From contig NZ_BSTC01000014.1 of assembly GCF_030269305.1 (NCBI RefSeq), positions 62,001-126,000 of the forward strand: DNA of 64,000 nucleotides, in the 5' to 3' direction. This document shows positions 12,578 to 32,898 of the stretch, piece by piece (the first letter of the stretch is position 1; each line of letters opens with the position of its first letter). The DNA is from Kineosporia sp. NBRC 101731 (lineage in GTDB: Bacteria > Actinomycetota > Actinomycetes > Actinomycetales > Kineosporiaceae). The notes beneath the pieces are model-generated. The model did no database searches, had not been told where the DNA came from, and worked only from the letters and a program-made list of their open reading frames with translations. The position numbers were made by a program, and so were the translations under genes.

Positions 12578-14914
12578 CTACCCCTGATGCAGGTCGCGGG
12601 CCAGGCTGACCCGCAGATAGGCGTTCACCCAGCTCTCGATCACGGCCGGTCCCGGCTCGGGTCCCAGACCCGCGCCCAGCTGCTCCACGTCGTCGGCGAC
12701 GAGGTGCAGGCCAACCCGGCGCAGGGCTGCGGCGGCCGTGGTCAGACGGGCCGGCACGGTGTTCGGCAGGTGGTGGATCCCACGGTGGGCCATCTGCGTG
12801 AGCAGGGCCGAGGCGTCGTCGAGGACCTGATGAAGGACGTCGCGGCCGCCCGGCGCTCCCGGGTCGGGGTTCTGTGTGTGGGTGGCGGGGGTGAGGTCGG
12901 GCACGATCACCTCGTCGTCGAGAGCAAAGCCGATCGGGTCGATGACGATGCCGCCCCCACTGCGACGGACGGTGCCGGACACCTGCCGCAGGCCGTCGCC
13001 CAACGCCGCGGCCATGGCGTCGAGACGGCCCGGGGCCCAGCTGTCGTGCGTCGCCGAGATCATCGCCCGGGTGCCGTCGGCATCGGTGACCACGGCGTCC
13101 AGGCGCTGGTCGCCCGGTGAGTAGGCGACCCACTCCACCTCGGTGACCGGGATCACCCGCACCAGCTCGGCCTTCACCCGGGCCCGCACCAGGCGGGGCG
13201 GGAGCTCGTCGAGCTCTCCGGCCAGCACCGTCAGACTCGGGGGCGCGATGGCCGCGGGCAGATGCTGCCAGGGACGGCTCACCGTCATGGCCTGGGTGCG
13301 GCTGAGACCACCCGCGCCGATCGTGACGGTGCGATTGGCGCTGCGCCGGGCGGCGTCGGTGATCACGGCGCCGGAGGCCAGGCGCTGGATCGTCGCGCCG
13401 GCCACGCGCCGGGCCCCGAGCTGGCTCCCGGTGTCGTTGGTGGTGTACGTCCTGCGCATCACCAGGACGGACGCACTGTCGGCATGCGCCAGGAACACCT
13501 CGACCGTGCGCTCGTCACCGGCCGCCGTGACCCGCGCACCGAGCCCTTCCAGCCGGGCCCGGCGCAGATGCGTCTGCGAGGCCTCGTCGGTACCGAGCAC
13601 CCGCGAGCGCAAACCTGACCCACCGTTGGTCACCGCGCGGTACCGGGCGAACAGTTCGGCGATGTGGTCAGCCAGGGCGTCGGGCCGGTAGCGCGCCGAC
13701 CGGTCGCGGTAGGCCTGCAACTGCGCGTCCAGGTCTTCCAGGGCCAGGAGCGGCCAGCGCAGTTTCGCGCCGTCGAGGGCCGCGCGCACCGTACTCGTGC
13801 GGGTGACCAGGCCGGTCTCAAGATGCACCGCGCCTTCCTGGAGCACCGTGGTAGCCAGTTCCACGGCCTGCTCGAGAGCGCTGCCACCGTCGCCGGCCGC
13901 GGCCCCACCCACCTGGACGTGTGGCTCCGGCTGGTCCGGGGCCTGCTCGTCCGCCGCCCGGAAGGCCCAGACCGCCAGTGCGACCACGTCGTCCCGGGTG
14001 CCGGCGACGGCATCACTGCGCGCGAAACCGAGATCGCCCGGCACATGGAACCTCACCGTGGCCGCGGGCAGATCCACGCCCGGCACCGGATCAGCGGCGC
14101 TCGCCCGGCGCACGCGCGCCACGTAACCCTTGGCCAGGGCGCGGCGGGCCGTGTTCATGGCGCGCTTGCCGATGTGGGCTTCCAGCTCGGCGTCGGTGAA
14201 GACGGCCGGGGTCCAGGATGGGTGGCGCGGTGGGTGGACCAAGCCTCCGACGGGTGCGTCGGACGGACTTCCCGGCACAGAGTCAGACGCAGCTCCGGTC
14301 TCAGCTCGATGCTCGGCCTCGCTCGGTCCCGACGCGGCCACGGTCTCGGTTGCGGAGGCGGAGTCATTCCCCGCTCTGGTCTCACCTCCGCTTCCGGGTT
14401 CCCGGCGAAGGTCAGCCGGCGCGACGGAGGAGAGCCCACCGTCCTCAGCCACGGACGAACCCGGGCCGGGCATCTGCCCGTCGGACCCGGCCGAGAGCTC
14501 GCTGTCTCCGCCCACTCCCGGCCCGGAACCCTTGGTACCCGCGAGACCGTCTCCACGATGAACGATTCCATCGGTTTTCCTGCCCGCGGCCTCCGCTGCA
14601 GCAGCCCGTGCTCCCGCGTCCCCCGTCCCCGCGTCCCTACTTCCCGGATCGACCGACGCCGCATACGCCAGCACCAGCATCACCACATGCCGGCACACAC
14701 CGGTCGCACCGCAGGAGCAACGGCCGGCCTCGAGTCCCCCGGCCGGAAGCGTCGTGGTGACTCCGTCCGCGTAGGTGGCGGTCAGCGTGCCCTGGCCGTT
14801 CTCCTCCATCGTCGGGGCGGACCGTTCCAGGTCCCGGGTGGCCCGTTTGACCAGGCCCCGGTTCGTCAGTGCGGCCAGGGACTCCGGGGTCAACGCGAGC
14901 AGCTCCCTCCTCAC
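12578..14914 (-). CDS. SWIM zinc-finger protein (YehQ-like)
   Basis: 778 aa. The SWIM signature C-x-C-x5-C-x-H is at Cys66, Cys68, Cys74 and His76 (RCSCGATGVCRHVV) after an N-terminal stretch beginning RRELLALTPESLAALTNRGL. SWIM motifs bind zinc and mediate DNA or protein contacts. Residues about 95-230 are a Gly/Ser/Glu-rich low-complexity linker; the rest is a large alpha/beta region of unknown fold. The GTG start overlaps the VWA stop (GTGA, 14911-14914). Last gene of the MoxR-DUF5682-VWA-SWIM set, equivalent in order and domain to E. coli yehQ. Molecular role unknown. Confidence 0.85.
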   Translation of the reverse strand: MRRELLALTPESLAALTNRGLVKRATRDLERSAPTMEENGQGTLTATYADGVTTTLPAGGLEAGRCSCGATGVCRHVVMLVLAYAASVDPGSRDAGTGDAGARAAAAEAAGRKTDGIVHRGDGLAGTKGSGPGVGGDSELSAGSDGQMPGPGSSVAEDGGLSSVAPADLRREPGSGGETRAGNDSASATETVAASGPSEAEHRAETGAASDSVPGSPSDAPVGGLVHPPRHPSWTPAVFTDAELEAHIGKRAMNTARRALAKGYVARVRRASAADPVPGVDLPAATVRFHVPGDLGFARSDAVAGTRDDVVALAVWAFRAADEQAPDQPEPHVQVGGAAAGDGGSALEQAVELATTVLQEGAVHLETGLVTRTSTVRAALDGAKLRWPLLALEDLDAQLQAYRDRSARYRPDALADHIAELFARYRAVTNGGSGLRSRVLGTDEASQTHLRRARLEGLGARVTAAGDERTVEVFLAHADSASVLVMRRTYTTNDTGSQLGARRVAGATIQRLASGAVITDAARRSANRTVTIGAGGLSRTQAMTVSRPWQHLPAAIAPPSLTVLAGELDELPPRLVRARVKAELVRVIPVTEVEWVAYSPGDQRLDAVVTDADGTRAMISATHDSWAPGRLDAMAAALGDGLRQVSGTVRRSGGGIVIDPIGFALDDEVIVPDLTPATHTQNPDPGAPGGRDVLHQVLDDASALLTQMAHRGIHHLPNTVPARLTTAAAALRRVGLHLVADDVEQLGAGLGPEPGPAVIESWVNAYLRVSLARDLHQG

Positions 14915-16041
14915 CGGCCCACCTGCTCGGCCACGAACCGGGCGAGCTGCCCCGGGGTCATGGCCCCGACGCCGGCGCCGACATCGGCCAGGCGCTGCGC
15001 GGTCTCGCGGTCGTAGGCCGGATTGGCCTCCTCGTCGAGGGCGGCCAGGCAGAGTACCTTCGAGCCCTGCTCCACGAGTTCACGGACGCTGCGGATCAGA
15101 CCTTCCGGCGAGCCACCCTCGTAGAAGTCGCTGATGAGCACGACGATGGCCCGCCGGGGCTGCTCCACGAGGCCTGCGCCGTAGTGCACCGCCTGATGGA
15201 TGTCGGTCCCGCCGCCCAGCTGCACCTTCATCAGCAGCTCGACCGGGTCGTCGACGTCGCTGGTCAGGTCGACGACGCTGGTGTCGAAGGCGACCAGGTG
15301 TGTCTTCACACCCGGCAGCCCCCACAGACAGGCCGCGGTCACCGCCGAGTGGATGACCGAGTCGATCATCGAGCCGGACTGGTCGACGAGCAGGATCACC
15401 TGCCACTGCTCCAGGTGTTTGCGGTGGCGCGAGAAGAAGTGGGGCGTCTCGATGTACAACCGCTGCTCGTCGGGACGGTAGTGCCCCAGATTCGCGCGGA
15501 TCGTACGGGTCATGTCGAAGTCGCGGGCTTGCTTCCACCGGCTGGGACGACGGGTGCGGGTGCCGGTGAAGGCAACCCGGACCTCGGTGCGCATCTTCTC
15601 CATCAGGTCACGCACGACCGCCTCGACGATGCGCCGGGCCAGGCGCAGCACCTCGGGGTTCATCAGGTGCTTGGTCTGCAGCACGGCCCGCAGCAGCGCC
15701 GGGTTCGGCTCGATGGTCTCCAGCACGGCCGGATCGGTGACCACGTCGTGGATCTCGTACCGTTCCACCGCATCCCGCTGCAGCCGCTCGACGGTCTCCT
15801 TCGGGAAGAGCTCCGTGATGTCGTTCAGCCAGTCGACCGTGCTGACCACGGATTCGCCGTCGGTCCCCCGACGGTCCTGGTGCCGCGCCCGGCGCACCCC
15901 CCGGCCGTCGTTCTCCGCGTCACGTCCGTAGAGCCAGTCCAGCGCCTCGTCACGGCCCTGCCCCTTCTCCCCCAGCGAACCGAGAGCGGACGCGGGGGCG
16001 CCCAGGACCAGCCTCCAGCGTTCCAGGCCCGGATCGATCAC
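14911..16041 (-). CDS. VWA (CoxE-like) domain protein (YehP-like)
   Basis: 376 aa. The C-terminal half is a von Willebrand A domain with an intact MIDAS: DQSGSM (220-225), the Thr/Gly loop GGGTDIHQA and ISDFYEGG. The N-terminal half is helical and specific to this family. VWA proteins of this kind work with MoxR AAA+ ATPases as an adaptor or substrate-remodelling pair. Both ends overlap neighbours (4 bp with DUF5682, 4 bp with SWIM), so stoichiometric translation is expected. Equivalent to E. coli yehP by domain and context. Confidence 0.88.
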   Translation of the reverse strand: MIDPGLERWRLVLGAPASALGSLGEKGQGRDEALDWLYGRDAENDGRGVRRARHQDRRGTDGESVVSTVDWLNDITELFPKETVERLQRDAVERYEIHDVVTDPAVLETIEPNPALLRAVLQTKHLMNPEVLRLARRIVEAVVRDLMEKMRTEVRVAFTGTRTRRPSRWKQARDFDMTRTIRANLGHYRPDEQRLYIETPHFFSRHRKHLEQWQVILLVDQSGSMIDSVIHSAVTAACLWGLPGVKTHLVAFDTSVVDLTSDVDDPVELLMKVQLGGGTDIHQAVHYGAGLVEQPRRAIVVLISDFYEGGSPEGLIRSVRELVEQGSKVLCLAALDEEANPAYDRETAQRLADVGAGVGAMTPGQLARFVAEQVGR

Positions 16042-18551
16042 GGCTGCGCCCCCTCACCGGCCACGATCAGCCCCTCACGTCTCACCATCGCGTCTACCCG
16101 TTCGTCCAATGCCATTCCCACCGCCACCGTCTGCGGATCATTCACCGCACGCACGAAAGCCCTTCCACTACCGGGCAGTCCGCGACGGGCCAGCAAACCT
16201 TCGGCCAGCACCGCCCGCTCCCGGGGCGGGAAGAACCCGAACGCCTGCCGCAGCGCGGGCAGGCCGATCAAGAAGTCCTCGGCGCTCAGACCCGACATCA
16301 GGTCGTCGAGCAGCGTCAGCACCGCCTCGTCGTGCAGCACCTCGTCGCGGGCCAGCGCAAACAGCCCGGCGAGCCAGTCGCCCGCGGTCCGTGGCTGGAA
16401 GGCGCCCCGCAGCACGCGCAGCGGGTCGGGCCGGTCGTCGTCGTTCTCGGAGAGCGACCACTGGAAACCGAAGGACGCACCCCTCAGGTCAGGAGGTGCC
16501 AGGACGTCGGCGGCGACCCGGGTCACGACGGCCCGGGCCTCCACGACGTCGAGCCCCAGGGCCGGGCCCGCGTGGCGCAGCCCGTCGCGACAGGCCGCGA
16601 GCGCCGCGATCCGCTCCCGGTCGGCGGGTTCCGGGCCACCGTGCAGCCCTTCGACCAGCCAGAGGATCCGCCGCACCGACGCCGCGATCACGGCTCCCAG
16701 GGCAGCATTGCGAGTCGTGCCGAAGACCTCGTCGTGACGCCACATCGTGAGCACCACGGCGAGCAGCCGGCCCAGCGGCGCAAGCTCCGGCACCTGCCCC
16801 ACCGCCCGGTCGACTGTGCTCAGGGCGTCGTCCAGCACCGTGGCCAGCCCGGCGAGGGCAGCATCGAAGAGCACCGCCGCCAGCGCGTCCACGTCGGTGC
16901 CCGCCCGGACCGCACGTTCGGTGAGCGCGGCCGCGGCGGCGTCGGTCAGCGTCGCGCCGTAGGCGCCTGCCTCGATGACGGCAGCCAGACGGTCGGGGTG
17001 CAGCTCGATCGTCCACTGCTCGCGCAGCACCGGATCCAGACCGGTGCTGGGCCCCCGTATCCGGAGGAACCCCGGGATGCCCAGCAACCGCACCCGGTGC
17101 AGCAACCGGCTGCGCCGGGCCTCGGGTGCCGTGGTCAGATCGAGGTCGTGACCGCCTGCTCGGGACAGCCCTTCCCGCTCCAGCTCGGCCTCGAGGTCGT
17201 GCACCAGCGGTGGCGCGGGCGTGGCGGGATGCAGCCTCCCCACGTGTGACCCGCTCAGGGCGGCGATCATCTCCACGACCACGGGATGGCTCCCGCCGCT
17301 GAGCGTGCCCCGGGCCGTCCAGGGCAGGGGCACGTCGAGCGCATCGTTCACGAGTGCGGACGCCAGTCCGTCGAGGACGTCGGTGCGCGCGGGATACGCA
17401 TGGCCCCGTACCAGCGCCAGCGCGTCGGCCGTGGCGCGGGCGGCGATCAGGTCGGCCGTGGAGACCGGTTGCTTGCGCTGACGCAGCCGGTCCGCCACGG
17501 ACCCGGTCAGGTGTCGGGCCGCGCCCTGCGGCCCGAGCTCCCAGAGCGCCTGGTAGTAGCCGGGAGACGGCATGCCCGACTGGTACCCGTCGAACGCGTC
17601 GAGGCGCCGGAACGAGTACGGCACCAGGAAACTGCCGCCGTGGGCGCCGTCGGGAAGAGCGGGAATCACTGGCCAGGAGGGGTACTGCGGATGAGCGAAT
17701 CCAGGCGCCGTGCCGCCAGAACCAGGCACCGTGCCGCCCGGACCGTTGGCCTCCGGAGCCTTCCCGGCCTCTGCACCGGCAGGAGGGCCTTCGGCGCACA
17801 CGTCCATCGGCCCCGCACCAGCAGAACTGCCCTCTCCCCCGGCATCCCCGGTTCCCAACGTCAATGGGACAGTGCCGTCCCCTCCGTCCACGCCGTCCAT
17901 GGCGCCGGGCCGTGGTTCCTGCGCCGCTACCAAGGCGGGCCGGTGGAACCCGCCCGTCACCACGACCACCGGCCGCTCCCCCGCTGCCTGGGCCGCCGCG
18001 GCCACCCACTGCGCCATGTAGGCCTCGCGGGCGCTGTCGCCCTCGTCCGCCGAGGTCTCGCCCCGCACCAGGTCGAAGTACGTCTCCAGCCGGACCTTCA
18101 GGTCGTCGGGCGGGGCGATCTCGACGAGGTGGTCCCAGAGCACGTCGACGTTGTCCAGACCGAAGCTGCGGCACAGCCGCTCCAGCACCTGGGCATAACG
18201 TAGTTCGGCGTCGGCGTAACGGTTCCCGACGCCGTCGAACGCCGGGTGCCAGGACGGCAGGTCGATGAACCGCAGCTGCGCGCCGACCGCCCGGCCCCGG
18301 GTGAGCGCGACCCACTCGGGTGAGTACTCGCAGAACGGCGCCCAGGAGGCATGGCGCCGTTCCTCGTCGCGATAGCTGCTGAACACGGCGATCGGCAGCT
18401 CGTGGCCCAGCAGCAGTTCGTCGATGCGCCCGTTCAGGTCGGCGGGACCCTCGACGAGCACGTAGGCGGGACTGAGCTCCTCGATCACCGAGGCGACCAG
18501 GCGGGCGCACGCCGGGCTGTGGTGGCGTACCCCGATGAACGTGACCGGCAC
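16038..18551 (-). CDS. DUF5682 family protein (YehM-like)
   Basis: 837 aa. Begins VTFIGVRHHSPACARLV and continues with SPAYVLVEGPADLNGRIDELL and ELPIAVFSSYRDEE, the conserved N-terminal block of DUF5682, which resembles the TraB/ChaN-type fold with a conserved His-His and Glu. The role is unknown. Residues about 215-290 form a Gly/Pro/Ala-rich insert. It lies 4 bp after the MoxR stop and overlaps the VWA start, so it is the fixed third element of the MoxR/VWA set. Equivalent to E. coli yehM by order. Confidence 0.85.
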   Translation of the reverse strand: MPVTFIGVRHHSPACARLVASVIEELSPAYVLVEGPADLNGRIDELLLGHELPIAVFSSYRDEERRHASWAPFCEYSPEWVALTRGRAVGAQLRFIDLPSWHPAFDGVGNRYADAELRYAQVLERLCRSFGLDNVDVLWDHLVEIAPPDDLKVRLETYFDLVRGETSADEGDSAREAYMAQWVAAAAQAAGERPVVVVTGGFHRPALVAAQEPRPGAMDGVDGGDGTVPLTLGTGDAGGEGSSAGAGPMDVCAEGPPAGAEAGKAPEANGPGGTVPGSGGTAPGFAHPQYPSWPVIPALPDGAHGGSFLVPYSFRRLDAFDGYQSGMPSPGYYQALWELGPQGAARHLTGSVADRLRQRKQPVSTADLIAARATADALALVRGHAYPARTDVLDGLASALVNDALDVPLPWTARGTLSGGSHPVVVEMIAALSGSHVGRLHPATPAPPLVHDLEAELEREGLSRAGGHDLDLTTAPEARRSRLLHRVRLLGIPGFLRIRGPSTGLDPVLREQWTIELHPDRLAAVIEAGAYGATLTDAAAAALTERAVRAGTDVDALAAVLFDAALAGLATVLDDALSTVDRAVGQVPELAPLGRLLAVVLTMWRHDEVFGTTRNAALGAVIAASVRRILWLVEGLHGGPEPADRERIAALAACRDGLRHAGPALGLDVVEARAVVTRVAADVLAPPDLRGASFGFQWSLSENDDDRPDPLRVLRGAFQPRTAGDWLAGLFALARDEVLHDEAVLTLLDDLMSGLSAEDFLIGLPALRQAFGFFPPRERAVLAEGLLARRGLPGSGRAFVRAVNDPQTVAVGMALDERVDAMVRREGLIVAGEGAQP

Positions 18552-18555
18552 CGGC

Positions 18556-19665
18556 TCAGCCCGGCAGGTGGTGACGGGCGTTGTGCAGCGCCGTCCAGTG
18601 CGGCCCGGAACGCCAGGTGATCTGCTGCGACAGGTAGCGCCGCAACTTGGCCAGGTCTTCGGGGCTGTCCTTGGCCGCGGTGCCGGCCAGGCAGGCCACC
18701 AGGTCTTCGGCCGTGCCGGGCTCGCCCCGCAGGAACCAGCCCCGCAGTCCGACCGCGTGCGCCACCGAGACCGCCTCGGCGGTGCTCATGACGGCGGAGA
18801 GCCGGTCCATCGAGTCACCGCGAGAGGTCTCCCCCGCCCGCAGTTCCCGGAACGCCGTCACCAGGACCTCGGTGAGGCCGCGGGTGGGCACCGCGGTCAC
18901 CCCGGAGCGCCGCAGGAGCTGGGTGGCCTCTTCCTCGACCAGAGCCATCTCGGTGGCGAGATCGGCGATCGGGAAGACAGTCTCGAAGTTGAACCGGCGT
19001 TTGAGGGCTGAGCTCATGTCATTGACGCCGCGGTCGCGGGTGTTGGCCGTGGCGATGATGTTGAAGCCGTCCCGCGCGAACACCATCGATTCCGGGCCGG
19101 TCAGTTCCGGGATCGCCAGCACCCGGTCGGACAGCGGCGACAGCAGGCAGTCCTGCACCTCCAGCGGGCAGCGGGTGATCTCCTCGAACCGCACCGTACG
19201 GCCCTCGGCCATGCCCCGCAGCAGCGGCGCCGGCACCAGCGATCGCGTCGAAGGCCCTTCGGAGACCAGCAGGGCGTAGTTCCACGAGTAACGAATCTGG
19301 TCTTCCGTGGTGGCCGCGCCACCCTGGATGGTCAGCGTCGAATCACCGGACACGGCCGCCGCCAGCAGTTCTGACAGCAGCGACTTGGCCGTGCCGGGTT
19401 CTCCGACGAGCATCAGCCCGCGGCTGGTGGCCAGTGTGATCAGCGCCCGGTCGATGAGCGAGGGGTCACCGACGAACTTGCGGCTCACGCCGAGCTTCTC
19501 GTCACCCACGATGAAGCGGCGGGCGGCCTGCACACTCAGCGCCCAGCCCGGGGGCCGGGCCGCCTCGTCGGCCGCGCCCAGCCGGGCCAGTTCGTCCGTG
19601 TACCGCACCTCGGCCCGCGGCCGCTGCACCTGCCCGGCCGGGGCGGTCACCTCAACGGCATCCAT
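18556..19665 (-). CDS. MoxR-like AAA+ ATPase (YehL-like)
   Basis: 369 aa. Walker A GEPGTAKS (88-95), Walker B region RTVRFEEIT (about 156-164), sensor-1 FNIIATANTRDRGVNDMSSALKRRF with an arginine finger region, and a C-terminal lid. MoxR ATPases form hexamers that remodel or load partner proteins together with VWA-domain partners. The ATG at 19665 has GGAGA upstream. It follows the fourth DUF4132 gene by 30 bp and precedes DUF5682 by 4 bp. Equivalent to E. coli yehL. Confidence 0.92.
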   Translation of the reverse strand: MDAVEVTAPAGQVQRPRAEVRYTDELARLGAADEAARPPGWALSVQAARRFIVGDEKLGVSRKFVGDPSLIDRALITLATSRGLMLVGEPGTAKSLLSELLAAAVSGDSTLTIQGGAATTEDQIRYSWNYALLVSEGPSTRSLVPAPLLRGMAEGRTVRFEEITRCPLEVQDCLLSPLSDRVLAIPELTGPESMVFARDGFNIIATANTRDRGVNDMSSALKRRFNFETVFPIADLATEMALVEEEATQLLRRSGVTAVPTRGLTEVLVTAFRELRAGETSRGDSMDRLSAVMSTAEAVSVAHAVGLRGWFLRGEPGTAEDLVACLAGTAAKDSPEDLAKLRRYLSQQITWRSGPHWTALHNARHHLPG

Positions 19666-22600: not shown

Positions 22601-23046
22601 GCCATCCACCAGTGCCCGAACGACTGACCCGGCCGGAGCGGCACGATCTGGGCGGCGTTCGACGAGAGGGTCAGGCCCAGGAGCTCGACCGCTGCCTCTG
22701 CCGCGAACCCCAGCCCCCGGGAGGTGATCCAGGCGTCCGCGAACGGAGCCTTGCGGACGTCGAGATCCCACTTCGTGAGCACCGTCACGGCGACTACCGC
22801 GGCACCGAGGGGCGAGCCGCTGCCGGGATCGCCCATCCAGACGGTGGCGGCCTCCCGCAGATCTTCGGCACTGGCAGCGATGAGACTCGTGAGATAGTCA
22901 CCGGCCAGCTGGATCTGGGAGTCGACCGCCGCCCTGGCGCCCGGTGCCGGACTGAGCGGGCCTGCCCCCAGACTGCCCCGTCGCGGGAACAGCTGGCGTT
23001 GCCAGGACGCGCTGAGCTCGAAATCCCGCCGGGGAAGGGCCGTCAT
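19696..23046 (-). CDS. DUF4132 giant protein, paralogue D (MoxR-proximal)
   Basis: 1116 aa. Fourth in transcription order and next to moxR. It shares the paralogue N-terminus (RRDFELSASWQRQLFPRRGSLGAGP), a long HEAT-like Ala/Leu/Arg-rich middle, and the strongly conserved last 450 residues: LRDGSGALPG, VLDGLALAGDDEVVRRLSPLIL, GHARAVTGVNVLAAIGSDVALM, DYGPRQFVVGFDEHLRPYGAD, FSALKKDVRKIGADVV, GRRWSGAEFRQLFVDHPLQWHVVRRLVWG. This C-terminal half is the DUF4132 domain known from E. coli YehI and MolR. The ATG overlaps the paralogue C stop by ATGA, and no copy of the upstream repeat element precedes it, so it depends on paralogue C for transcription. Confidence 0.9.
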   Translation of the reverse strand: MTALPRRDFELSASWQRQLFPRRGSLGAGPLSPAPGARAAVDSQIQLAGDYLTSLIAASAEDLREAATVWMGDPGSGSPLGAAVVAVTVLTKWDLDVRKAPFADAWITSRGLGFAAEAAVELLGLTLSSNAAQIVPLRPGQSFGHWWMAPQLQTVLRVRSALAVAPEQEYIEIVGRLAAHRSRHAYHRLATSLLAPTETAWVEEDVTDTVAAKDDYRAFALTQSLSTVRQLERLDAGSASSWSFRWAPVSSHAYLATMVDALGSDVLGVILRWLGEEEFDADSRRRVLAAVAQMPTEAAMTALADRIDQKFVSSALLEAADRFPGLALDVLAARGARGRLAEVLRSHVRGHRELTAERLDALPPEAAGRVRALLDEARAIVEAPQAALPPLLVSPPWLNRGKAVKPVVLTGLVCADEPTLTWREGELAAFAVPENGYVHDFHDHASWKQRAGKVTGGQAMWWEEMAFFGQAPEELARPLLAGWSPHDFIDRDDLSPIVARFGLDALPPVIRRARQSAALMAPLLLPFSSPELAVMMADWLARLKSVRATASAWLLRHPEPAARALVPVALDRAGAARRQAENALLHLGTRGQGEAVLAAARTYGTEAAVAIEHLLGRDPLTVLPAKVPALPAWGQTGLLPPVRLRDGSGALPGPAMEHLVTIFALSRLDQPYPGLDVVRDVVQPEDLSAFAWDLFQRWYASGAVAKDNWVLDGLALAGDDEVVRRLSPLILAWPGEGGHARAVTGVNVLAAIGSDVALMHLHNIAQRAKFKGLKTTAQQKMATVADSLGFTSEQLADRLVPGLGLQADGSMVLDYGPRQFVVGFDEHLRPYGADATGQRLKNLPKPGAKDDPELAPAAYQQFSALKKDVRKIGADVVRRLEQAMVNGRRWSGAEFRQLFVDHPLQWHVVRRLVWGLHDSEGNLIGSLRVAEDRTFADVSDDETAVADDAVVGVVHPLHLGDAVAAWSEVFADYEILQPFAQLARTVYTLSPQEAETGSLERFEGVKIPTTKVLGLERRGWRRDDPMDAGIQGSIEVSFTSGVGCGISLDPGIIVGDPNDWEEQTLAHVWLSNSSAWACGQTRATGSRLPLRPSDLVAVSEILRDLTDITDITEQAS

Positions 23047-26000: not shown

Positions 26001-26384
26001 GGGCACGCTCCGGTCGAGCGTCAGCGCCATCAACTCGACGGCCGCCTCGGCGGCGAAAGCCACGCCGTGCTCGGCGATCCACAGATCGGCGAACGGCGCC
26101 TTACGCCATTCCTGGTTGTACCGGTTCAGCACCACGGCCGCCACCACCGCTGCACCGAGCGGCGTCGCCCCTCGATCGCCGTCGAGCCACGCCAGGCCGG
26201 CCTCCCCCAGGGCCGGTTCGCCCGCGGTCGCCAGCGACTGCCGCAATTCCACCAGATCGTCGCGTAGTTCACCCTCGACCGCCGGGCGCGCACCCTTCAA
26301 CGGGCTGAACGGACCCGCCCCCAGACTGCCGCGGCGGGGGAACAGCTGACGCTGCCAGCCGGCACTGAACTCGAAGTCACGCAT
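23043..26384 (-). CDS. DUF4132 giant protein, paralogue C
   Basis: 1113 aa, full length. Domain order is as in paralogue D: conserved start MRDFEFSAGWQRQLFPRRGS, HEAT-like middle with VTWREGEQETFARLP, then the DUF4132 half (QYAGLDIVREIL-type motif, GHARAVVGVNVLAAIGSDVALM, DYGPRQFVVGFDEQLRPYV, RRWSGREFRELFVGHPLLWHIV). The C-terminal GLSCSIALDPGFIVGLPAEF repeats a strand pattern also present in the others. A promoter-like element at 26421-26459 lies 36 nt upstream of the ATG. Function unknown. The paralogue copies differ mostly in the N-terminal 600 residues, consistent with diversification of a recognition part. Confidence 0.9.
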   Translation of the reverse strand: MRDFEFSAGWQRQLFPRRGSLGAGPFSPLKGARPAVEGELRDDLVELRQSLATAGEPALGEAGLAWLDGDRGATPLGAAVVAAVVLNRYNQEWRKAPFADLWIAEHGVAFAAEAAVELMALTLDRSVPGWVHRMSPTGQHSNWWNAPHLYSLLRVRAALAVVPEAEYASVVAVLGSYRSGHAYHRLATSILAPGQAGWVDADVADTVAAEDFYRAFALTQALTGLRQLEDLDTAFAVRWSFRWAVTHSHAHVATMVDGVGAAILPTLLSWLDTDSFDSDRNRRLPALVAQFPSDEAMSALIDRIGRKYVPPALQEAVERFPERAVRLLAGAGSQGLLAEMLRAHVLHRRDLATGVVPQLTGAAASRVQTLLDAADTLTEAPVEALPALLVSPPWQNRVKAPRPVVVPGLACSAEACVTWREGEQETFARLPRNYDVYRTDPATAGSWEDRAAKVGAGNGYWYDDLSFFLEAPDAVARRVLSTWSPSPYADRRELSPLVARFGTDALPALIRRTESSAAEAYPVLAPLFSPELAVRTADWLARLKSARATATAWLLRHAAPASLALVPAALGKAGVARRQAENALVLIGSRGQEEAVRAAAESYGPQAAAAIGELLARDPLTVLPAKIPANPSWAAAGLLPPVRLRDGCGVLPLSAVEHLVTVFALSRLDQPYAGLDIVREILVPEDLSRFAGSLFDRWFSAGAEAKENWALDGLGLVGDDEVVRRLTPLILAWPGEGGHARAVVGVNVLAAIGSDVALMHLHTIAQRAKFRGLKSAAQEKMAAVAADLGLTSDQLADRLVPGLGLGDDGSMLLDYGPRQFVVGFDEQLRPYVTDRAGKRLKALPKPGAKDDPELAPAAHRQFSALKKDVRRVAADVILGWETAMVTGRRWSGREFRELFVGHPLLWHIVRRVVWGLYDTDGALIGTIRVAEDRTLADVTDEEVKLSDDAIVGVAHPWDLASSGSSGAEWAGVFADYEILQPFPQLSRPVHTLTAEELKTGVLTRFEGRKVPSGKVLGLERRGWHRAPAMDGGMQGTIEVSFASGLSCSIALDPGFIVGLPAEFDEQTLSMVRLHAGSAHPFAAASAGDPVEISDLVAASEILRDLTDITEVAS

Positions 26385-26420
26385 GGAACCGGGAACCTTC
26401 CGTCTGAAGACACCTCATCG

Positions 26421-26459: not shown

Positions 26460-26522
26460 CTACCAGAGCCCCCACCTGCGCGATCAACCCGATTCACCCG
26501 TCCGCCCGCAGATCTCACCGGT

Positions 26523-29513
26523 TCAGCCGCCGGTGATCCCGGTGAGGTCGCCCAGGATCTCCGAGACGGCCACCGGGTCGCAGTCCCCCAGGAGGGGCAG
26601 GGTCGCCCGGTCTGCGAACGGTTCCGGACTACCGTGGTGCAGGCGCACCGTCACCAGCGTCTGGACGTCCGCATCGGTCGGGAACCCGATGACGAAGCCC
26701 GGGTCGAGACGCACCGAGCACTTCAGCCCGGAGGAGAACGAGACGGCGACCGACATCTGCATCACGTCGTCCGGTTCCTCCCGGCGCCATCCCCGCCGTT
26801 CCAGGCCCAGCACCGTCCCGTTCGGTGCCTCCAGGCCCTCGAACCGCTCCAGCACGCCGTGTTCGGCCTCGGAAGGCGTGAGCGTGTGAACGGGACGGTC
26901 CAGCTGCGGGAACGGCTGCAGGATCTCGTAGTCGGCGAAAACCCCCGCCCACGGTTCCACCGCCGGGCCCAGGTGCAGCGGGTGTGCCACCCCGACGACC
27001 GCATCATCGGGCAGTTTCGTCTCCAGGTCGGCGAGATCGGCGAAGGACCGGTCTTCCGCGACCCGGAGGGCACCCACGAGACGGCCGTCGTCGTACACAC
27101 CCCAGACCAGACGGCGGACGACGTGGCACACCAGAGGATGCCCGACCAGGAACTGCCGGAACTCCGACCCCGACCAGCGCCGGCCGCTCACCATCGATTG
27201 CTCCAGCCGCTGCACGAGGTCGGCCGCGATCTTGCGCACATCCTTCTTCAGCCCCGAGAACTGCTGGTAGGCAGCCGGAGCCAGATCCGGGTCGTCCTTC
27301 GTCCCGGGCCGGGGCAGGTTCTTCAGCCGTTGGCCCGCGGTGTCGGTGACGTACGGCCGCAGTTCCTCGTCGAACCCGACCACGAACTGACGCGGCCCGT
27401 AATCGAGCAGCAGGCTGCCGTCGTCGTCCAGACCCAGGCCGGGCACCAGCCGGTCGGCCAGCTGGTCGGCGGTGAGCCCGAGATCGGCCGCCAGCGAAGC
27501 CATCCGCTCCTGGGCCGCGCTCTTCAGGCCCTTGAACTTCGCCCGCTGTGCAATGGAGTTCAGGTGCATCAGCGCCACGTCCGACCCGATGGCCGCCAGC
27601 ACGTTCACCCCCGCGACGGCCCGGGCGTGCCCACCCTCGCCGGGCCAGGACAGAATCAGCGGGGTCAGCTGCCGCACCACCTCATCGTCACCGGTCAGGG
27701 CCAGCGCGTCGAGCACCCAGTTCTCCTTCGGGTCCGCCCCCGCCACGAACCAGCGCTGGAACAAGCCCCAGGCGAAGACCGGCAGGTCTTCGGGCACGAC
27801 GGCCGCCCGCACGAGGTCCAGCCCGGCGTAGGGCTGTTCGACGTGGCTCAGGGCGAACATCGTGACCAGGTGCTCCACCGCCGCGACCGGCAGCGCCCCC
27901 GCACCACCGGCCAGCCGCACCGACGGGAGCAGGGCCGGGGCGGCCCACGACGGGACGGCCGGGATCCGGGCGGGCAACTGCGTGAGCGGGTCGCGGGACA
28001 GCAGGGCCTCGACCGCCGCGGCGGCCTCGTCACCGTAGACCCGCCCGGCCGAACGCACCGCATCGCCGTGACCGTGGGAAGCCAGGTGCAGAAGGGCGTT
28101 CTCGGCCTGGCGCCGGGCCGCGCCGACCCGGCCCAGGGCCGGTGGCACCAGTGCCCGGGCGGCCACGTCGGCGTGCCGCAGCAGCCAGGCCGAGGCACCG
28201 GCCCGGACGCTCTTGCGCCGGGTCAGCCCTTCGGCCTGCAGCACCGGGTCCTGCGACTCACCCGCTGACGGCTCGTCGGTACAGCTCAGACCAGTCAGGA
28301 CGATGGGCCGGGCCGCTGCGGCCCGGTGCAACCACGGCGGGGACATCAGCACCGCGGGCACGGCCCCCGCCGGGGCCTGGCCGATCGCCGCGATCTCGTC
28401 GAGAATCGCCTGCACCCGCTGCGCGCCCGGCGGCCGGCCCACCACCCAGGCAGCCGCCAGGTCACGATGACCGCGCACGTGCGCCCGCAACAGGTCAGCG
28501 AGCTGCCCGCGACCTCCCCGCTCGGCGAGCACCCCGAGCGCGAGGCCGGGGAACCGGCCCGCGGACTCCAGGAGCGCGGCCTCGGCGGACGGCCGCCCGG
28601 CCCGGTCGGCGAGCGCGCGCACGGCGGCCTCCGACGGCATCTGGGCGATCGCCTCCAGCAGACGCTGCCCGTCGTCGCCCGCCGAGCGGTCGCCGTCCAG
28701 CCAGCGCAGGAACATCTCCAGTGCCTGGGTGCCCAGGGCGTCGAGCAACGTGGCGATGTAGTGCGGGGAGGCCTTCACCGCGCCCTGGAACGTGTAGCCG
28801 GAGGAGAACGTACGGTCGAGCAGCGCCAGCTGGTCCGGCTCGGTCAGGCACTGGGTCAGGGCGATACCGCGGTAGACGTCGTGCTGCTGGAGCGCGGCGT
28901 CGAGGTCGGCGGCCACCCAGCCGGCCTGCGTGGGCACGAGCAGTGACGTGCCGAACCGGTGGTACTCGTGCCGTGACCGGTACCCGGCGAGAATCTCGAC
29001 CACCCGGGCGTACTCAGCCTCCGGAGCGGCGGCCAGCGCCGTACGCACCCGCCAGGCCGGCAGCAGCTCGGGAGTGGCCCACCAGCGGCGCTGCACGATC
29101 TCGCCCGCCCGCAGGAACCGCAGGTCGTGGCCGCTCTCGGAGAAGGTCAGCGCGAGCAGCTCGACCGCCGCCGCGGCGGCGAAGGCGAGCCCTCGCTCGG
29201 CGATCCAGACATCGGCGAAAGGAGCGGTGTAGCAATCCCGGTCGCGATTCATCAGGGCTGCGGCCACCACCGCGGCGCCCAGGGGTGAGGCGTCGGCCGC
29301 ACCGTCGCGCCAGGCGTGGGCCGCCCGTAGCAACGGCTCGTTCCCGGGCCCGGCGAACAGCAGCAGCCGGTCGAGGTAGTTACCGGACTGCTCGAGGTAC
29401 TCGTCGACGGTGCCCCGGGCCGTGGGCACCGCCGTGACGGGACTGACCCCGAGCGTGCCCCGGCGGGGGTACACCTGGTGCTGCCAGGCAGCGGTGAGCT
29501 CGAAGTCGCGCAT
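26523..29513 (-). CDS. DUF4132 giant protein, paralogue B (internally deleted)
   Basis: 996 aa, about 100-120 residues shorter than its neighbours. The N-terminus (MRDFELTAAWQHQVYPRRGT) and whole DUF4132 half are intact. The deletion is in the middle: where the others run from TDEP through TWREGEQETF and LARFG.DALP to LARLKSVRA, this one goes from LSCTDEPSAGESQDPVLQAE straight to RKSVRAGASAWLLRH (around nt 28210-28285). The frame is kept, so a shortened protein is expected. It has its own upstream element at 29551-29590. The gap of 138 bp to paralogue C contains that gene's element. Confidence 0.88.
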   Translation of the reverse strand: MRDFELTAAWQHQVYPRRGTLGVSPVTAVPTARGTVDEYLEQSGNYLDRLLLFAGPGNEPLLRAAHAWRDGAADASPLGAAVVAAALMNRDRDCYTAPFADVWIAERGLAFAAAAAVELLALTFSESGHDLRFLRAGEIVQRRWWATPELLPAWRVRTALAAAPEAEYARVVEILAGYRSRHEYHRFGTSLLVPTQAGWVAADLDAALQQHDVYRGIALTQCLTEPDQLALLDRTFSSGYTFQGAVKASPHYIATLLDALGTQALEMFLRWLDGDRSAGDDGQRLLEAIAQMPSEAAVRALADRAGRPSAEAALLESAGRFPGLALGVLAERGGRGQLADLLRAHVRGHRDLAAAWVVGRPPGAQRVQAILDEIAAIGQAPAGAVPAVLMSPPWLHRAAAARPIVLTGLSCTDEPSAGESQDPVLQAEGLTRRKSVRAGASAWLLRHADVAARALVPPALGRVGAARRQAENALLHLASHGHGDAVRSAGRVYGDEAAAAVEALLSRDPLTQLPARIPAVPSWAAPALLPSVRLAGGAGALPVAAVEHLVTMFALSHVEQPYAGLDLVRAAVVPEDLPVFAWGLFQRWFVAGADPKENWVLDALALTGDDEVVRQLTPLILSWPGEGGHARAVAGVNVLAAIGSDVALMHLNSIAQRAKFKGLKSAAQERMASLAADLGLTADQLADRLVPGLGLDDDGSLLLDYGPRQFVVGFDEELRPYVTDTAGQRLKNLPRPGTKDDPDLAPAAYQQFSGLKKDVRKIAADLVQRLEQSMVSGRRWSGSEFRQFLVGHPLVCHVVRRLVWGVYDDGRLVGALRVAEDRSFADLADLETKLPDDAVVGVAHPLHLGPAVEPWAGVFADYEILQPFPQLDRPVHTLTPSEAEHGVLERFEGLEAPNGTVLGLERRGWRREEPDDVMQMSVAVSFSSGLKCSVRLDPGFVIGFPTDADVQTLVTVRLHHGSPEPFADRATLPLLGDCDPVAVSEILGDLTGITGG

Positions 29514-29550
29514 CGAACCGGAAATCCCTCATCGTGTCGTCGCTGCTTGC

Positions 29551-29590
29551 TTGCGGCCCGCAGACTAGCCACGACCTACGACAAAACCGG
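29551..29590 (-). promoter_or_regulatory. DUF4132 upstream element, copy for paralogue B
   Basis: Forward text begins TTGCGGCCCGCAGACTAGCC and continues ACGACCTACGACAAAACCGG, 37 nt upstream of the paralogue B start. It aligns base for base with the copies at 26421 and 32933 over the TTGCGG-CCGCA and TAGCCACG cores. On the coding strand the putative -10 reads TAGTCT. Confidence 0.7.
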
Positions 29591-29607
29591 AATACCGCCC
29601 TGGACCC

Positions 29608-32600
29608 TCATTCCGTCAACCCGGTGAGATCGTTCAGGATCTCGGAGACCGCCAGCCGGTCGACGGGCCCGAGCTGGAGGGGATGATCCTCACGGGAGAA
29701 GGGATGGGTGCCGCTCGCGTGCACGCGCACCAGGTCGAGCGTCTGCTCCTCCCACTCGGTGGGCATCCCGATGACGAATCCGGGATCGAGGGCGATCGTG
29801 CCGGTCACCCCGGAGGGGAAGGAGATGTCGATGGAGCCCTGGATCCCGGCGTCCATCGGCGCCTCCCGCCGCCAGCCCCGGCGTTCCAGGCCCAGCACCT
29901 TCGCGGCCGGGATCTTGCTGCCCTCGAACCGCTTCAGGATCCCGGTCTCCAGTTCGGGCCCGGTGAGTGTGTGCACCGGCCGGGCGAGCTGGGGGAATGG
30001 CTGCAGCAGTTCGTAGTCGGCGAAGAGCTCCGCCCACGGCGCAACCTGGGACCCCAGCGGCAGGGGATGTGCCACACCGATCACCGCGTCGTCGGCCAGC
30101 AGCACCTCGTCGTCCAGGACGTCGGCGAAGGTGCGGTCCTCGGCCACCCGCAGCGCACCGGTGAGGTGGCCGTCGGCGTCGTAGAGCCCCCAGACCAGCC
30201 GCCGCACGACGTGCCCCAGCAGCGGGTGCCCGACGAACAGTTGCCGGAACTCGGCCCCGCTCCAGCGGCGTCCCCTCACCATCGCCTGTTCCAGGCGCAG
30301 GATCGCGTCGGCCCCGATCTTGCGCACGTCTTTCTTCAGGGCCGAGAACTGCTGGTACGCGGCCGGAGCCAGATCCGGGTCATCCTTCGCACCCGGCTTG
30401 GGCAGGTTCTTCAGCCGCTTGCCCGCCGCATAGGTCACGAACGGGCGCAGTTGCTCGTCGAACCCGACCACGAACTGCCGCGGCCCGTAGTCCAGGACGG
30501 TGGTGCCGTCGGCCGCCAGCCCCAGACCCGGCACCACACGGTCGGCCAGCTGGTCGGCGGTGAGCCCGAGATCGGCCGCTACGGAACCCATCTTCTCCTG
30601 GGCCGCGTTCTTCAGGCCCTTGAACTTCGCCCGCTGGGCAATGGTGTGCAGGTGCATCAGGGACACGTCGGAACCGATGGCGGCCAGCACGTTGACCCCG
30701 GCGACCGCACGGGCGTGACCACCCTCACCGGGCCAGGCCAGGATCAGCGGGGTCAGCTTGCGCACCACCTCGTCGTCGCCGGCCAGCGCCAGACCGTCGA
30801 GCACCCAGTTCTCCTTCGCCACCGCGCCCTCCGCCAGCCAGCGCCCGAACAGGGCCCAGGCGAAGGCCGGGAGGTCGGGCGCGGCCAGGCTCTGGCGCAC
30901 GATCTCCAGCCCGGCGTAGGGCTGCTCGATGCGGCTCAGCGCGAAGACGGTGATCAGGTGCTCGACGGCGGACGCGGGCAACACCCCCGAACCGTCTCGC
31001 AGCCGGGGCTGGGGCAGCCGCTCCGTGCGGGCCCAGGACGCAAGGGCGGGGATCCGGGCCGGTAGATCCATCAGGGGATCCCGGGCGAGCAGCACCTCGA
31101 TCGCCGCCGCGGCCTCGTCGCCGTAGTCCCGTCCGGCCGAGCGCACCGCATCGGCGTGACCGTGGGAAGCCATCAGCAGGAGGGCGTTCTCGGCCTGACG
31201 CCGGGGCGCACCGGCCTTCCCCAGCGCCGGGGGCACCAGGGCCCGGGCCGCCGGGAGCGGGCGCCGCAGCAGCCACGCGGAGGCCATCCCCCGCACACTC
31301 TTCAGCCGGGTCAGCCAGTCGGCCATGCGCACCGCGACCGCGGGTGAGAAGAACGGGCCGAGTACCGCCGCCACCTCGACCGGGGAGCCCGGGGCCCGGC
31401 ACATCAGGGCGGGTAGCGCCGCGATGCCGAAACGAGCTGCGATCGGACGCAACTCGGACCGGTCGGAGTAATCACCCGGAACCCAGCCGGCCACCAGGGG
31501 CGCCGCGAGATCGAACGGGGCCTCGATCAGGAAGCTCGGCGCCTCCCAGCGGGAGAGGTTTTCCCGTAGCTCACCGGCCCGCTGCTCCCACTGCTGGCGG
31601 CTGTCACCGGCGGAGTAGGGCGACCAGACGTCGGGCGAGCGCCGACCGAACGTCTCCTGCTCCCCTTCCCGCCAGGTCACGACGGGCTCGTCGGTGGCGG
31701 ACAGACCTTCGAGAACGACCGGCCTGGGTGCCTTCACCCGGTGCAGCCACGGTGGCGAGACCAGCAGCGGCGGCAATGTCCGCGTAGGGGCCTCGGTGAT
31801 CGCGTCGAACTCGTCGAGCAGGGCCCGCACCCTTCCCGCCGCCTCGGCCGGCAGCGTCGCCACCTGCCCGGCGGCCAGCTCCCGGTGCCGGCGCACGTGC
31901 AGCCGCAGCAGTTCATCGAGCTTGCGGCGATCACCGCCCACCGCGAGCACCCCCAGCGCCGGACCGGGCAGCCGCCCGGCCGCCTCCAGCAGGACCGGCT
32001 CCACCCCGCCCACGGTGGCGCGATCGGCGAGAACGCGCAGAACCCTCTCGTCGGGGATCTGGGCCAGCGCCTCGAGCAGGCGCTGCCGGGACTCCGGAGC
32101 CGTCTCACCGTCGAACCAGCGCATCAGCACCTCGACCGCGTCCCGGCCGAGGAAGTCCACCACGCCGGCGAGGAACCAGGCGCTCGAGGCCAGGACGCCC
32201 CGGACCGTGCCGAACGCACCGTCTACCCGTTCCAGCTGCTGCCGCGTGGACAGCGACAGGATCAGGCTGACAGCACCCTGCGGGTCGTGCTCGGCGATGA
32301 GGAGATCGAGAGACTCCTGCACCCAGGCGGTCTCGGTCGGCACGAGCAGCGACGTGGCCATCCGGTGGTATTCGGACCGCGATCGCAGGCCCGCCAGAAC
32401 CTCGACGATCGCGGCGTACTCGGCCTCGGGAGCGCCGGCCAGCGCCGCGCGCACCCGCCACTGCACCTGCAGGAATCGCCAGAAGTACCAGCCGGCGCCC
32501 CGCCCGGGCCCCAGGAACCGGATGTCCTCGTGGGGCACGGTCAGACCCAGCAACTCGACGGCCGCCTCCGCGGCGAACCGCAACCCCCGCTCCGCGATCC

Positions 32601-32898
32601 AGGCATCAGCGAAAGGTGCCTCGTAGAGGTCGGTCCGGTGCCGCATCAGCGCCCGGGCGATCGCCGCCGCCCCGAGCGGCGGCGTGTCGGGATCCCCCGC
32701 CAGCCAGGCCTGCGCAGCCTCACGGATCTCGCTCCCACTGGCCTGTACCACCCGGTCGAGATGCTCACGGACCTCAGCCGTGTACGCCTCGATCCGGGCG
32801 CGCGCCTGCGGCGCCGGCACGAGGGCCTCCACCCCCAGGCTGCCGCGCCGGGGGTACAGCTCGCGCTGCCAGGCCGAGGTGAACTCGAAGTCGCGCAT
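29608..32898 (-). CDS. DUF4132 giant protein, paralogue A (first of the array)
   Basis: 1096 aa. Start MRDFEFTSAWQRELYPRRGS; HEAT-like middle containing VTWREGEQETFGRRSP and FGIAALPALM; then the DUF4132 half (GVLPASAVEHLITVFALSRI, NWVLDGLALAGDDEVVRKL, GHARAVAGVNVLAAIGSDVSLM, DYGPRQFVVGFDEQLRPFV, RRWSGAEFRQLFVGHPLLGHVV). The C-terminus GVTGTIALDPGFVIGMPTEW matches the others. No signal peptide or membrane segment is seen, so it is cytoplasmic. It is first in the array, 94 bp before paralogue B, with its own upstream element at 32933-32973. Confidence 0.9.
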   Translation of the reverse strand: MRDFEFTSAWQRELYPRRGSLGVEALVPAPQARARIEAYTAEVREHLDRVVQASGSEIREAAQAWLAGDPDTPPLGAAAIARALMRHRTDLYEAPFADAWIAERGLRFAAEAAVELLGLTVPHEDIRFLGPGRGAGWYFWRFLQVQWRVRAALAGAPEAEYAAIVEVLAGLRSRSEYHRMATSLLVPTETAWVQESLDLLIAEHDPQGAVSLILSLSTRQQLERVDGAFGTVRGVLASSAWFLAGVVDFLGRDAVEVLMRWFDGETAPESRQRLLEALAQIPDERVLRVLADRATVGGVEPVLLEAAGRLPGPALGVLAVGGDRRKLDELLRLHVRRHRELAAGQVATLPAEAAGRVRALLDEFDAITEAPTRTLPPLLVSPPWLHRVKAPRPVVLEGLSATDEPVVTWREGEQETFGRRSPDVWSPYSAGDSRQQWEQRAGELRENLSRWEAPSFLIEAPFDLAAPLVAGWVPGDYSDRSELRPIAARFGIAALPALMCRAPGSPVEVAAVLGPFFSPAVAVRMADWLTRLKSVRGMASAWLLRRPLPAARALVPPALGKAGAPRRQAENALLLMASHGHADAVRSAGRDYGDEAAAAIEVLLARDPLMDLPARIPALASWARTERLPQPRLRDGSGVLPASAVEHLITVFALSRIEQPYAGLEIVRQSLAAPDLPAFAWALFGRWLAEGAVAKENWVLDGLALAGDDEVVRKLTPLILAWPGEGGHARAVAGVNVLAAIGSDVSLMHLHTIAQRAKFKGLKNAAQEKMGSVAADLGLTADQLADRVVPGLGLAADGTTVLDYGPRQFVVGFDEQLRPFVTYAAGKRLKNLPKPGAKDDPDLAPAAYQQFSALKKDVRKIGADAILRLEQAMVRGRRWSGAEFRQLFVGHPLLGHVVRRLVWGLYDADGHLTGALRVAEDRTFADVLDDEVLLADDAVIGVAHPLPLGSQVAPWAELFADYELLQPFPQLARPVHTLTGPELETGILKRFEGSKIPAAKVLGLERRGWRREAPMDAGIQGSIDISFPSGVTGTIALDPGFVIGMPTEWEEQTLDLVRVHASGTHPFSREDHPLQLGPVDRLAVSEILNDLTGLTE

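Follow-up and report, generated by a model that had tools for sequence, protein, structure and literature searches.

Tandem DUF4132 paralogues beside a YehL-type MoxR-VWA cassette in Kineosporia: candidate exchangeable recognisers for one remodelling machine

MoxR AAA+ ATPases and their von Willebrand factor A (VWA) partners form machines that are widespread and whose cellular roles are mostly unclear; a YehL subfamily of MoxR is already on record, and Escherichia coli has both RavA and YehL (passages of PMC3893208). In MoxR-vWA ternary conflict systems, the third component is VMAP, iSTAND, FtsH or a beta-propeller (Kaur et al. 2020, PMC7159879, main-text passages). Here we describe a locus from Kineosporia sp. 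NBRC 101731 (genome of 8.26 Mb in 88 contigs), found in a stretch of 64,000 nucleotides (contig NZ_BSTC01000014.1, positions 62,001 to 126,000; the window hereafter), in which four giant paralogues of the family DUF4132, P1 to P4, precede genes for a MoxR ATPase, a DUF5682 protein, a VWA protein and a SWIM zinc-finger protein. The original prediction had likened its set and order to E. coli yehI-L-M-P-Q, and comparison with yehI-(yehK)-L-M-P-Q agrees: the same genes stand in the same order, with identities of 62% for MoxR (over 97% of the protein), 58% for VWA, 37% for DUF5682 and 28% for SWIM. Unlike the E. coli cluster, with its two or three DUF4132 genes, the window has four; it lacks yehK and a WGR domain, and has an upstream element of its own before P1 to P3.

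All eight genes lie on the minus strand, at window positions 12578-32898, in the order P1-P2-P3-P4, MoxR, DUF5682, VWA, SWIM (Table 1). Four DUF4132 proteins of 996-1116 aa in a row were correctly read from the letters, each frame being in place and matching the Pfam family. The accompanying phrase "without gaps" holds only in part: DUF5682, VWA and SWIM do overlap, by 4 bases at each junction, as do P3 and P4, but the other spacers are small rather than absent (P1-P2, 94 bases; P2-P3, 138; P4-MoxR, 30; MoxR-DUF5682, 4). With MoxR, a VWA protein carrying its metal-ion-dependent adhesion site (MIDAS), SWIM, DUF5682 and DUF4132 together in one gene run, the machine is, by sequence, a YehL-type MoxR cassette, for which a hexameric ATPase acting with its VWA partner would be the expectation by analogy. 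The MoxR motifs GEPGTAKS and EEIT are invariant in nine of nine aligned proteins. The intact MIDAS and the SWIM finger that had been claimed are both there: DQSGSM, GGGT and a later aspartate (D305) are invariant in all six VWA homologues, and the CxC-CxH residues C66, C68, C74 and H76 in all eight aligned SWIM homologues. The SWIM protein has no Pfam match at E 0.01 and no solved relative by sequence; its identity is 69% to K. babensis, 50% to Actinoplanes couchii, 39% and 27% to two other actinobacterial copies, and 28% to E. coli YehQ.

Our reading, towards which we lean on balance, is that of one AAA+ remodelling machine with exchangeable, diversifying DUF4132 recognisers. An ATP-driven MoxR-VWA machine, together with DUF5682 and the SWIM zinc protein, would be served by several such recognisers, each a HEAT-like alpha-solenoid whose variable regions V1 and V2 and variable tail would bind targets, and whose constant C-terminal half would dock on the shared machine, which would then remodel or unfold what has been bound. 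The repertoire would be built by tandem duplication, divergence and loss, and in E. coli also by recombination that reshuffles V1 and V2. The leading options for the target are proteins of foreign origin (from phages or mobile elements) and those located on damaged DNA. One machine with interchangeable recognisers would explain, at once, the variation in copy number, the split between variable and constant parts, the mosaic alleles and the slow evolution of the machine subunits.

The split is visible among the window paralogues, which are 43-54% identical to one another in alignment columns 1-410, 46-68% in columns 411-550, 71-74% in columns 551-1060 and 42-54% in the tail. Conservation is not uniform, and the proposed conserved C-terminal and divergent N-terminal halves are borne out; P2 lacks a segment of ~110 residues, which alignment and mapping place in V2. 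NG86 ratios of nonsynonymous to synonymous substitution (dN/dS) are 0.47-0.75 in the N part and 0.26-0.38 in the C part of the six window pairs, and 0.42-0.62 and 0.23-0.36 in four further pairs with the K. babensis copy. Gene conversion was considered for the conserved half and set aside: dS is slightly lower there (0.54-0.79 versus 0.64-0.96, ten pairs), and as the difference is only modest, constraint is the simpler cause. P1 and its K. mesophila orthologue give a dN/dS of 0.34 overall (0.12-0.75 in 100-codon steps) and a dS of 0.21, above that of four flanking genes (0.09-0.16), whose own dN/dS is 0.33 for the MEKHLA gene and 0.08-0.18 for the three others. Relative to K. babensis, DUF4132 is the fastest-evolving cassette member, with dN/dS of 0.09 for MoxR, 0.18 for VWA, 0.20 for DUF5682, 0.27 for SWIM and 0.33 for P4, the last possibly a comparison of paralogues.

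The same profile recurs in distant bacteria. Taken on P4 coordinates in 37 steps of 30 residues, identity profiles of the four window paralogues, 11 E. coli alleles (E5 left out) and the Massilia mucilaginosa copies longer than 1100 aa correlate with rho of 0.76 (Kineosporia-E. coli), 0.87 (Kineosporia-Massilia) and 0.77 (E. coli-Massilia); neighbouring steps are not independent, hence no p-values are given, and none of 36 circular shifts reached the first of these values. An AlphaFold2 model of P4 built from 21 sequences (pLDDT 85, pTM 0.65) has a helical solenoid at aa 37-800, followed by a mixed C-terminal domain to ~aa 1110, and V1 and V2 map to the P4 segments listed in Table 1. The top Protein Data Bank matches from Foldseek are HEAT-type solenoids (an SF3b chain, Kap121, CAND1, the PP2A scaffold; probability 0.85-0.99), and a sequence search for solved relatives of DUF4132 returned two matches alone (E 0.32 and 0.81). 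The model fits a flexible binding scaffold, with a function that the fold does not name.

E. coli supplies support of an independent kind for the proposal that the N-terminal half recognises varying targets. Its cluster may carry, beside yehI, the DUF4132 genes a and b, b being the middle gene. Among 5426 genomes, yehL-Q are covered to at least 80% in 5155, gene b in 3989 (a count lowered by divergent alleles) and gene a in 1604; three unbroken tandem copies occur in 7 of 15 fetched loci, in two of which a machine gene is broken. With genes annotated as broken excluded beforehand, mean dN is 0.006 for yehL (8 strains), 0.008 for yehP (7), 0.017 for yehM (7) and 0.021 for yehQ (2), as against 0.002 for metG (9), 0.030 for yehI (7), 0.061 for gene a (6) and 0.153 for gene b (7). 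In gene b, mean dN reaches 0.18-0.49 at aa 76-450 and 0.38-0.43 at aa 526-675, synonymous sites there being saturated in at least one pair, and falls to 0.04 at aa 451-525 and 0.007-0.04 at aa 751-1050. In gene a, a lower peak lies at aa 451-750 (dN 0.10-0.21, dS 0.48-1.08).

By its sequence, gene b is a mosaic in which two variable regions recombine between conserved blocks. Single linkage at 75% sorts V1 and V2 of 12 alleles into four classes each, with between-class identity of 38-55%; the alleles were chosen for spread by rank, so that class frequencies are not readable from them, and two (MS10858 and AMA1167) come from loci with a single upstream gene, treated as gene b by similarity. The V1 classes are 2015C, AMA1167, E67, MS10858 and W46; AVS0536, E01, EC5931 and R9; Eco24 and YZ311; and E5. 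Those of V2 are AMA1167, E67 and W46; AVS0536, E01, EC5931, Eco24, R9 and YZ311; 2015C and MS10858; and E5. One V1 class is thus found together with either of two V2 classes, and one V2 class likewise with either of two V1 classes; 2015C has, in addition, a tail of its own. Within classes, V1 and V2 are 86-100% identical among seven strains. The WGR domain (75-100%) and the core (83-100%) are alike across all 12 alleles, as is block C1, with the exception of the short E5 allele (1010 aa). In W46, identity between paralogues a and b is 88% across the first 203 bases, ~44-60% through most of the middle and up to 73% in the C part, and a cross-strain pair reaches 91% in the last 66 bases; this similarity at the gene ends is a sign of exchange there.

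These alleles bear on a sceptical alternative, namely that relaxed constraint and neutral duplication leave an N-terminal half that merely tolerates change. It agrees with ratios that stay below 1 and are higher in the N half, and with broken or short DUF4132 copies in Massilia and E. coli. We regard it as improbable, given that relaxation alone predicts neither the synonymous saturation, which in at least one pair affects V1, V2 and one tail window of gene b and spares its conserved blocks, nor the falling of V1 and V2 into shared classes that are so uniform within. An anti-phage or anti-mobile-element system, in which DUF4132 solenoids would sense foreign proteins and the machine with a DUF5682 hydrolase would disable them or the cell, is a tentative but serious candidate for the role of the locus; allelic hypervariability, V1/V2 shuffling, the gene-content polymorphism counted above, the birth and decay of DUF4132 copies, and plasmid-borne cassettes, one of them beside a type I restriction set, all speak for it. 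Against defence stand the near-core presence of the E. coli machine at one site, the ordinary neighbours of the window array, and the lack of a known effector domain; PADLOC 2.0.0 gave, for the eight proteins, a single partial match of 13 bits (E 0.0049), joining 36 MoxR residues to REase_II. The scans for viral homologues point neither way, with no P4 match in the phage collection and none confirmed for DUF5682, MoxR or DUF4132 in viral contigs. A possible, bolder form of this idea is that most E. coli carry an unrecognised innate immune system against phages and mobile elements, a MoxR-VWA unfolder with shuffled HEAT-solenoid receptors whose variable regions would be duplicated, shuffled and swapped in the manner of antibody or restriction specificity modules.

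Larger arrays exist elsewhere. Within the phylum, 15 of 296 genomes have DUF4132, 14 of them above the cut-off; among relatives the count is 9 of 58, and both counts include the window genome. M. mucilaginosa and M. rubra have 11 and 10 domain matches in a row, some of these copies being partial, broken or short, and each row ends in one MoxR-DUF5682-VWA-SWIM set; both species have a second cassette with three DUF4132 matches, MoxR, DUF5682 and a SWIM-like protein, in which simple gene calls found no VWA, just as they found no SWIM at the Nonomuraea locus. Across the family that includes Massilia, at least 33 of 294 genomes carry DUF4132 (at least 31 over the cut-off) and at least seven have runs of three or more; two matches 1.2 kb apart in one genome (G531) may be one gene. 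Per single-copy machine, the number of DUF4132 genes is two to three in E. coli, three in a metagenome-assembled Propionibacteriaceae genome and in the second Massilia cassettes, and four in the window. A single copy adjoins the machine in K. babensis, one A. couchii cassette, Nonomuraea and A. vitis, and an Iodobacter plasmid cassette has two, one of them shortened. Gene order differs in the A. vitis and Propionibacteriaceae cassettes, and in the latter a gene of the Schlafen AlbA_2 type lies between DUF5682 and VWA (L082:1401-2816). A. couchii (G350) has 11 DUF4132 matches on ten contigs, with one of the four sites read (L112) adjoining a machine.

The Kineosporia, main Massilia, second Massilia and Propionibacteriaceae copies form separate tree groups (SH-like approximate likelihood ratio test, SH-aLRT, 100), which fits separate expansions of the tandem arrays; the tree is a quick one in which long branches were flagged, including where the Propionibacteriaceae group meets the second Massilia one. 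Massilia has seven collinear orthologue pairs of 80-90% identity, a sign that old arrays are kept. Such stable one-to-one pairs suggest stable separate roles, as a maturation chaperone would require: like RavA-ViaA or MoxR of the NorQ/CbbQ type, the machine would activate endogenous enzymes, with each DUF4132 protein a client-specific adaptor. Known MoxR roles (passages of PMC3893208) lend this some weight, but we think it unlikely as fixed clients leave divergent, reassorting alleles within one species unexplained.

Within the genus, the six Kineosporia genomes have 6 (the window genome), 1, 2, 0, 2 and 2 DUF4132 domain matches. In the tree of 48 proteins, the four window copies fall within a Kineosporia group of nine (SH-aLRT 100): P1 beside K. 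mesophila, P3 beside K. babensis C8 (on another contig), and P4 beside K. babensis C56 and a further copy of the window genome (C4). By these placements, the window copies probably separated earlier than the species did. Next to its isocitrate dehydrogenase gene, K. mesophila has the P1 orthologue (87% identical; flanks 92-98%) and two SWIM fragments, remnants of a machine deleted there; relative G004 has a lone DUF4132 at this site, and three further genomes have none in the 19 kb read. The one-copy K. babensis cassette lies elsewhere, with identities of 92% for MoxR, 84% for VWA, 73% for DUF5682, ~70% for SWIM and 65% for DUF4132 to P4.

A 22-base element is common to the regions before P1, P2 and P3. 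Its position and survival are notable, as the genes themselves have diverged to ~60% identity. The pattern was written from the three copies, which match by construction; with three mismatches allowed, it has no further match in the genome, against seven for a reversed control. A 34-base form has four matches in six genomes of the genus, all before DUF4132 genes (window P1, window P3, K. mesophila P1 and the lone G004 copy), and misses P2; its control has none. Since P3 and P4 overlap, a single operon may run from P3 through P4 and the machine, P1 and P2 being separate units with common control. A scan of positions 12300-32299 returned no promoter and four terminator sites, no more than in shuffled sequence.

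Table 1. Features of the locus, in window coordinates
Feature	Position	Strand	Length	Remarks
Conserved element upstream of P1	32933..32955	minus		
P1, DUF4132 paralogue	29608..32898	minus	1096 aa	Pfam DUF4132 E 1.7e-57
Conserved element upstream of P2	29551..29573	minus		2 mismatches to the P1/P3-derived pattern
P2, DUF4132 paralogue	26523..29513	minus	996 aa	Pfam DUF4132 E 2.7e-57
Conserved element upstream of P3	26421..26443	minus		
P3, DUF4132 paralogue	23043..26384	minus	1113 aa	Pfam DUF4132 E 1.5e-56
P4, DUF4132 paralogue, adjoins machine	19696..23046	minus	1116 aa	Pfam E 3.9e-61; start set by homology, raw open reading frame reaches further upstream
P4 variable region V1	22036..23019	minus		~aa 10-337, predicted mostly alpha-solenoid; placed by homology with gene b of E. 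coli
P4 variable region V2	21472..21822	minus		~aa 409-525; placed by homology with gene b of E. coli
P4 Pfam DUF4132 domain	19987..20538	minus		aa 837-1020, within the constant C-terminal half
MoxR/YehL-type AAA+ ATPase	18556..19665	minus	369 aa	AAA_5 E 2.5e-35
DUF5682 protein (YehM type)	16038..18551	minus	837 aa	Pfam E 5.7e-100
VWA protein (CoxE type, YehP)	14911..16041	minus	376 aa	Pfam VWA_CoxE E 2.5e-57
SWIM protein (YehQ type)	12578..14914	minus	778 aa	homology and CxC-CxH

At all 14 E. coli loci tested, a LexA-like box (CTGGATAAAATTACAG, one mismatch to consensus, with one further base different in one strain) starts 25 bases ahead of the first DUF4132 gene; a fifteenth locus lacks that side. 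By chance, ~0.07 such boxes would be expected over that length, and the strains are related, not independent. molR is listed as LexA-regulated (passages of PMC11039860 and PMC4576408), and the operon of the Deinococcus DUF4132 protein DRA0166 rises on depletion of DdrO (passages of PMC8533742). Together with the WGR domain of 10 of the 21 members of DUF4132 alignment A2, these points favour a DNA-damage machine, in which damage would induce DUF4132, WGR would bring it to DNA ends, and MoxR-VWA would strip or remodel stalled complexes. We rate this role as possible, a little below defence; against it, the window copies lack WGR, allele shuffling is not explained by a damage role itself, and SOS control of the window array was rejected, there being no actinobacterial LexA box at up to one mismatch upstream of P1 (a verdict that leaves aside 77 two-mismatch sites in the window). 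The Massilia SOS boxes were likewise dismissed as array control, as they precede lexA, one gene apart from the DUF4132 array; in both species, lexA, recognised by eye, has two perfect boxes (L101:4661-5353, L102:14562-15254). LexA regulation of molR in E. coli is as much a pointer to DNA damage as to defence, and both readings of the role overlap with the proposed mechanism.

The DUF5682 subunit invites a guess at chemistry. Its N-terminal motifs (GVRH, E34, RExxM, GGFH) resemble, as we take it, those of the TIKI/TraB/ChaN superfamily, and in an alignment of 13 members H10, E34, R175, M179, G200 and H203 are invariant, but the first GxxH varies at G7. Weak Pfam matches to ChaN occur in 4 of the 13 (best E 0.039) and to TraB in one (0.012). 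Profile comparison with hhalign gave probabilities of 2.2 and 1.8 at the expected motifs, with merely 7.6 for the positive control and 0.04-0.88 for unrelated pairs. A fold search from an unusable model (pLDDT 38) returned no TIKI-type match among the 50 listed, and the weak solved relatives found by sequence, mostly ATP-synthase stalks (best E 0.0067), were taken as coiled-coil noise. As a firm assignment TIKI-like was therefore dropped, the motifs fitting in part and profile comparison, model and fold search being indecisive; the subunit may be a TIKI-like hydrolase. In a second cassette of the same genome, DUF5682 and VWA form one open frame of 1223 aa, from which we infer that these subunits probably contact each other. 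That cassette (G000:C17, ~120-134 kb) consists of a phosphotransferase-like gene, a short DUF4132 (376 aa), MoxR and the DUF5682-VWA fusion, and also encodes a 1697 aa protein without a Pfam match; a similar one is present in G004, and DUF5682 matches occur in the other Kineosporia genomes. The window genome further encodes a stand-alone DUF5682-like protein of 949 aa (G000:C1, L049:6715-9564), and similar partial matches are found in the other five Kineosporia genomes.

Several observations weigh against a shared machine with exchangeable recognisers. Positive selection, sought along the paralogues, was not seen: dN/dS is below 1 wherever computable, in the paralogues and in the P1 orthologue pair alike. 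Mosaicism was sought in E. coli alone, in the nonrandom alleles described above, and yehI, the copy adjoining the machine, is not hypervariable there. Machine genes are broken in some strains: yehL and yehM in W46, yehP in EC5931 and yehQ in BW25113, in whose record (L121:10993-25619) yehQ has an internal stop and the variable upstream DUF4132 gene is annotated as frameshifted. DUF4132 also stands without a machine beside it (K. mesophila P1, C4 of the window genome, K. babensis C8, the G004 copy and three of the four A. couchii sites read), and the family may act without one or in trans. The window copies do not have the WGR domain seen in many others. In the fold comparison, just 2 of 657 Foldseek matches have E of 0.001 or below, with TM-scores of ~0.1-0.2 and root-mean-square deviations near 30 Å, and a variable solenoid followed by a conserved domain could be common to solenoid families at large.

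Around the array, a monomeric isocitrate dehydrogenase and YjgF-like and phosphorylase-like proteins are encoded downstream, and MEKHLA, DUF6518 and ABC/FecCD transporter genes lie upstream; a defence island was accordingly discarded, the flanking genes scanned being ordinary genes of metabolism and transport. A resistance block rich in IS26 abuts a truncated DUF4132 gene in one E. coli strain (L119:1-14660), and IS26 insertions of this kind have been reported in the DUF4132 region (passages of PMC9334617). Searches of the open-access literature, outside which most subscription journals fall, turned up nothing on arrays of DUF4132 or on shuffling of its variable regions among the entries listed; DUF4132 is named in three papers there and DUF5682 in none, yehM, yehP and yehQ appeared solely in a genome announcement, and the yehI matches listed were mostly unrelated names. 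The frameshifted DUF4132 gene and yehQ stop of the BW25113 record suggest why E. coli K-12 genetics may have missed the system.

Measured against described machines, the locus shares with RavA-ViaA a MoxR protein with a VWA partner, but its VWA protein matches the ViaA model at just E 0.095 (11.9 bits versus a cut-off of 500). Among solved structures, midasin comes nearest to the MoxR profile (E 2.4e-16); it differs as a eukaryotic ribosome-assembly factor of one chain exceeding 4700 residues. In the HsdS specificity subunits of type I restriction systems, two variable regions for recognition lie between conserved blocks and are reshuffled by recombination. The DUF4132 proteins are no members of that family, being predicted alpha-solenoids of ~1000-1270 aa in a cassette without a methylase or restriction partner; the likeness is one of analogy, in that the two variable regions of E. 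coli gene b reassort between conserved blocks across 12 alleles, and by the same analogy they may determine which target is bound. Reassortment of this kind was seen in E. coli, the Kineosporia data consisting of paralogues and one orthologue pair. Membership of the MoxR-vWA ternary conflict systems, which the original prediction had raised, was not supported: a Pfam scan of the eight proteins at E 0.01, with no separate VMAP model run, found no VMAP, iSTAND, double FtsH or beta-propeller component and no such effector domain, the bpMoxR match (23.1 bits) is under its cut-off of 27, and a term search of the main text of PMC7159879 gave no occurrence of DUF4132, DUF5682, YehL or SWIM. What the locus does share with those systems is a MoxR-VWA pair joined by a further, diversified component—here, as we propose, one kind of MoxR-VWA system with diversified, recombining giant recognisers, present also in the commonest laboratory species, where the question of its target becomes testable.

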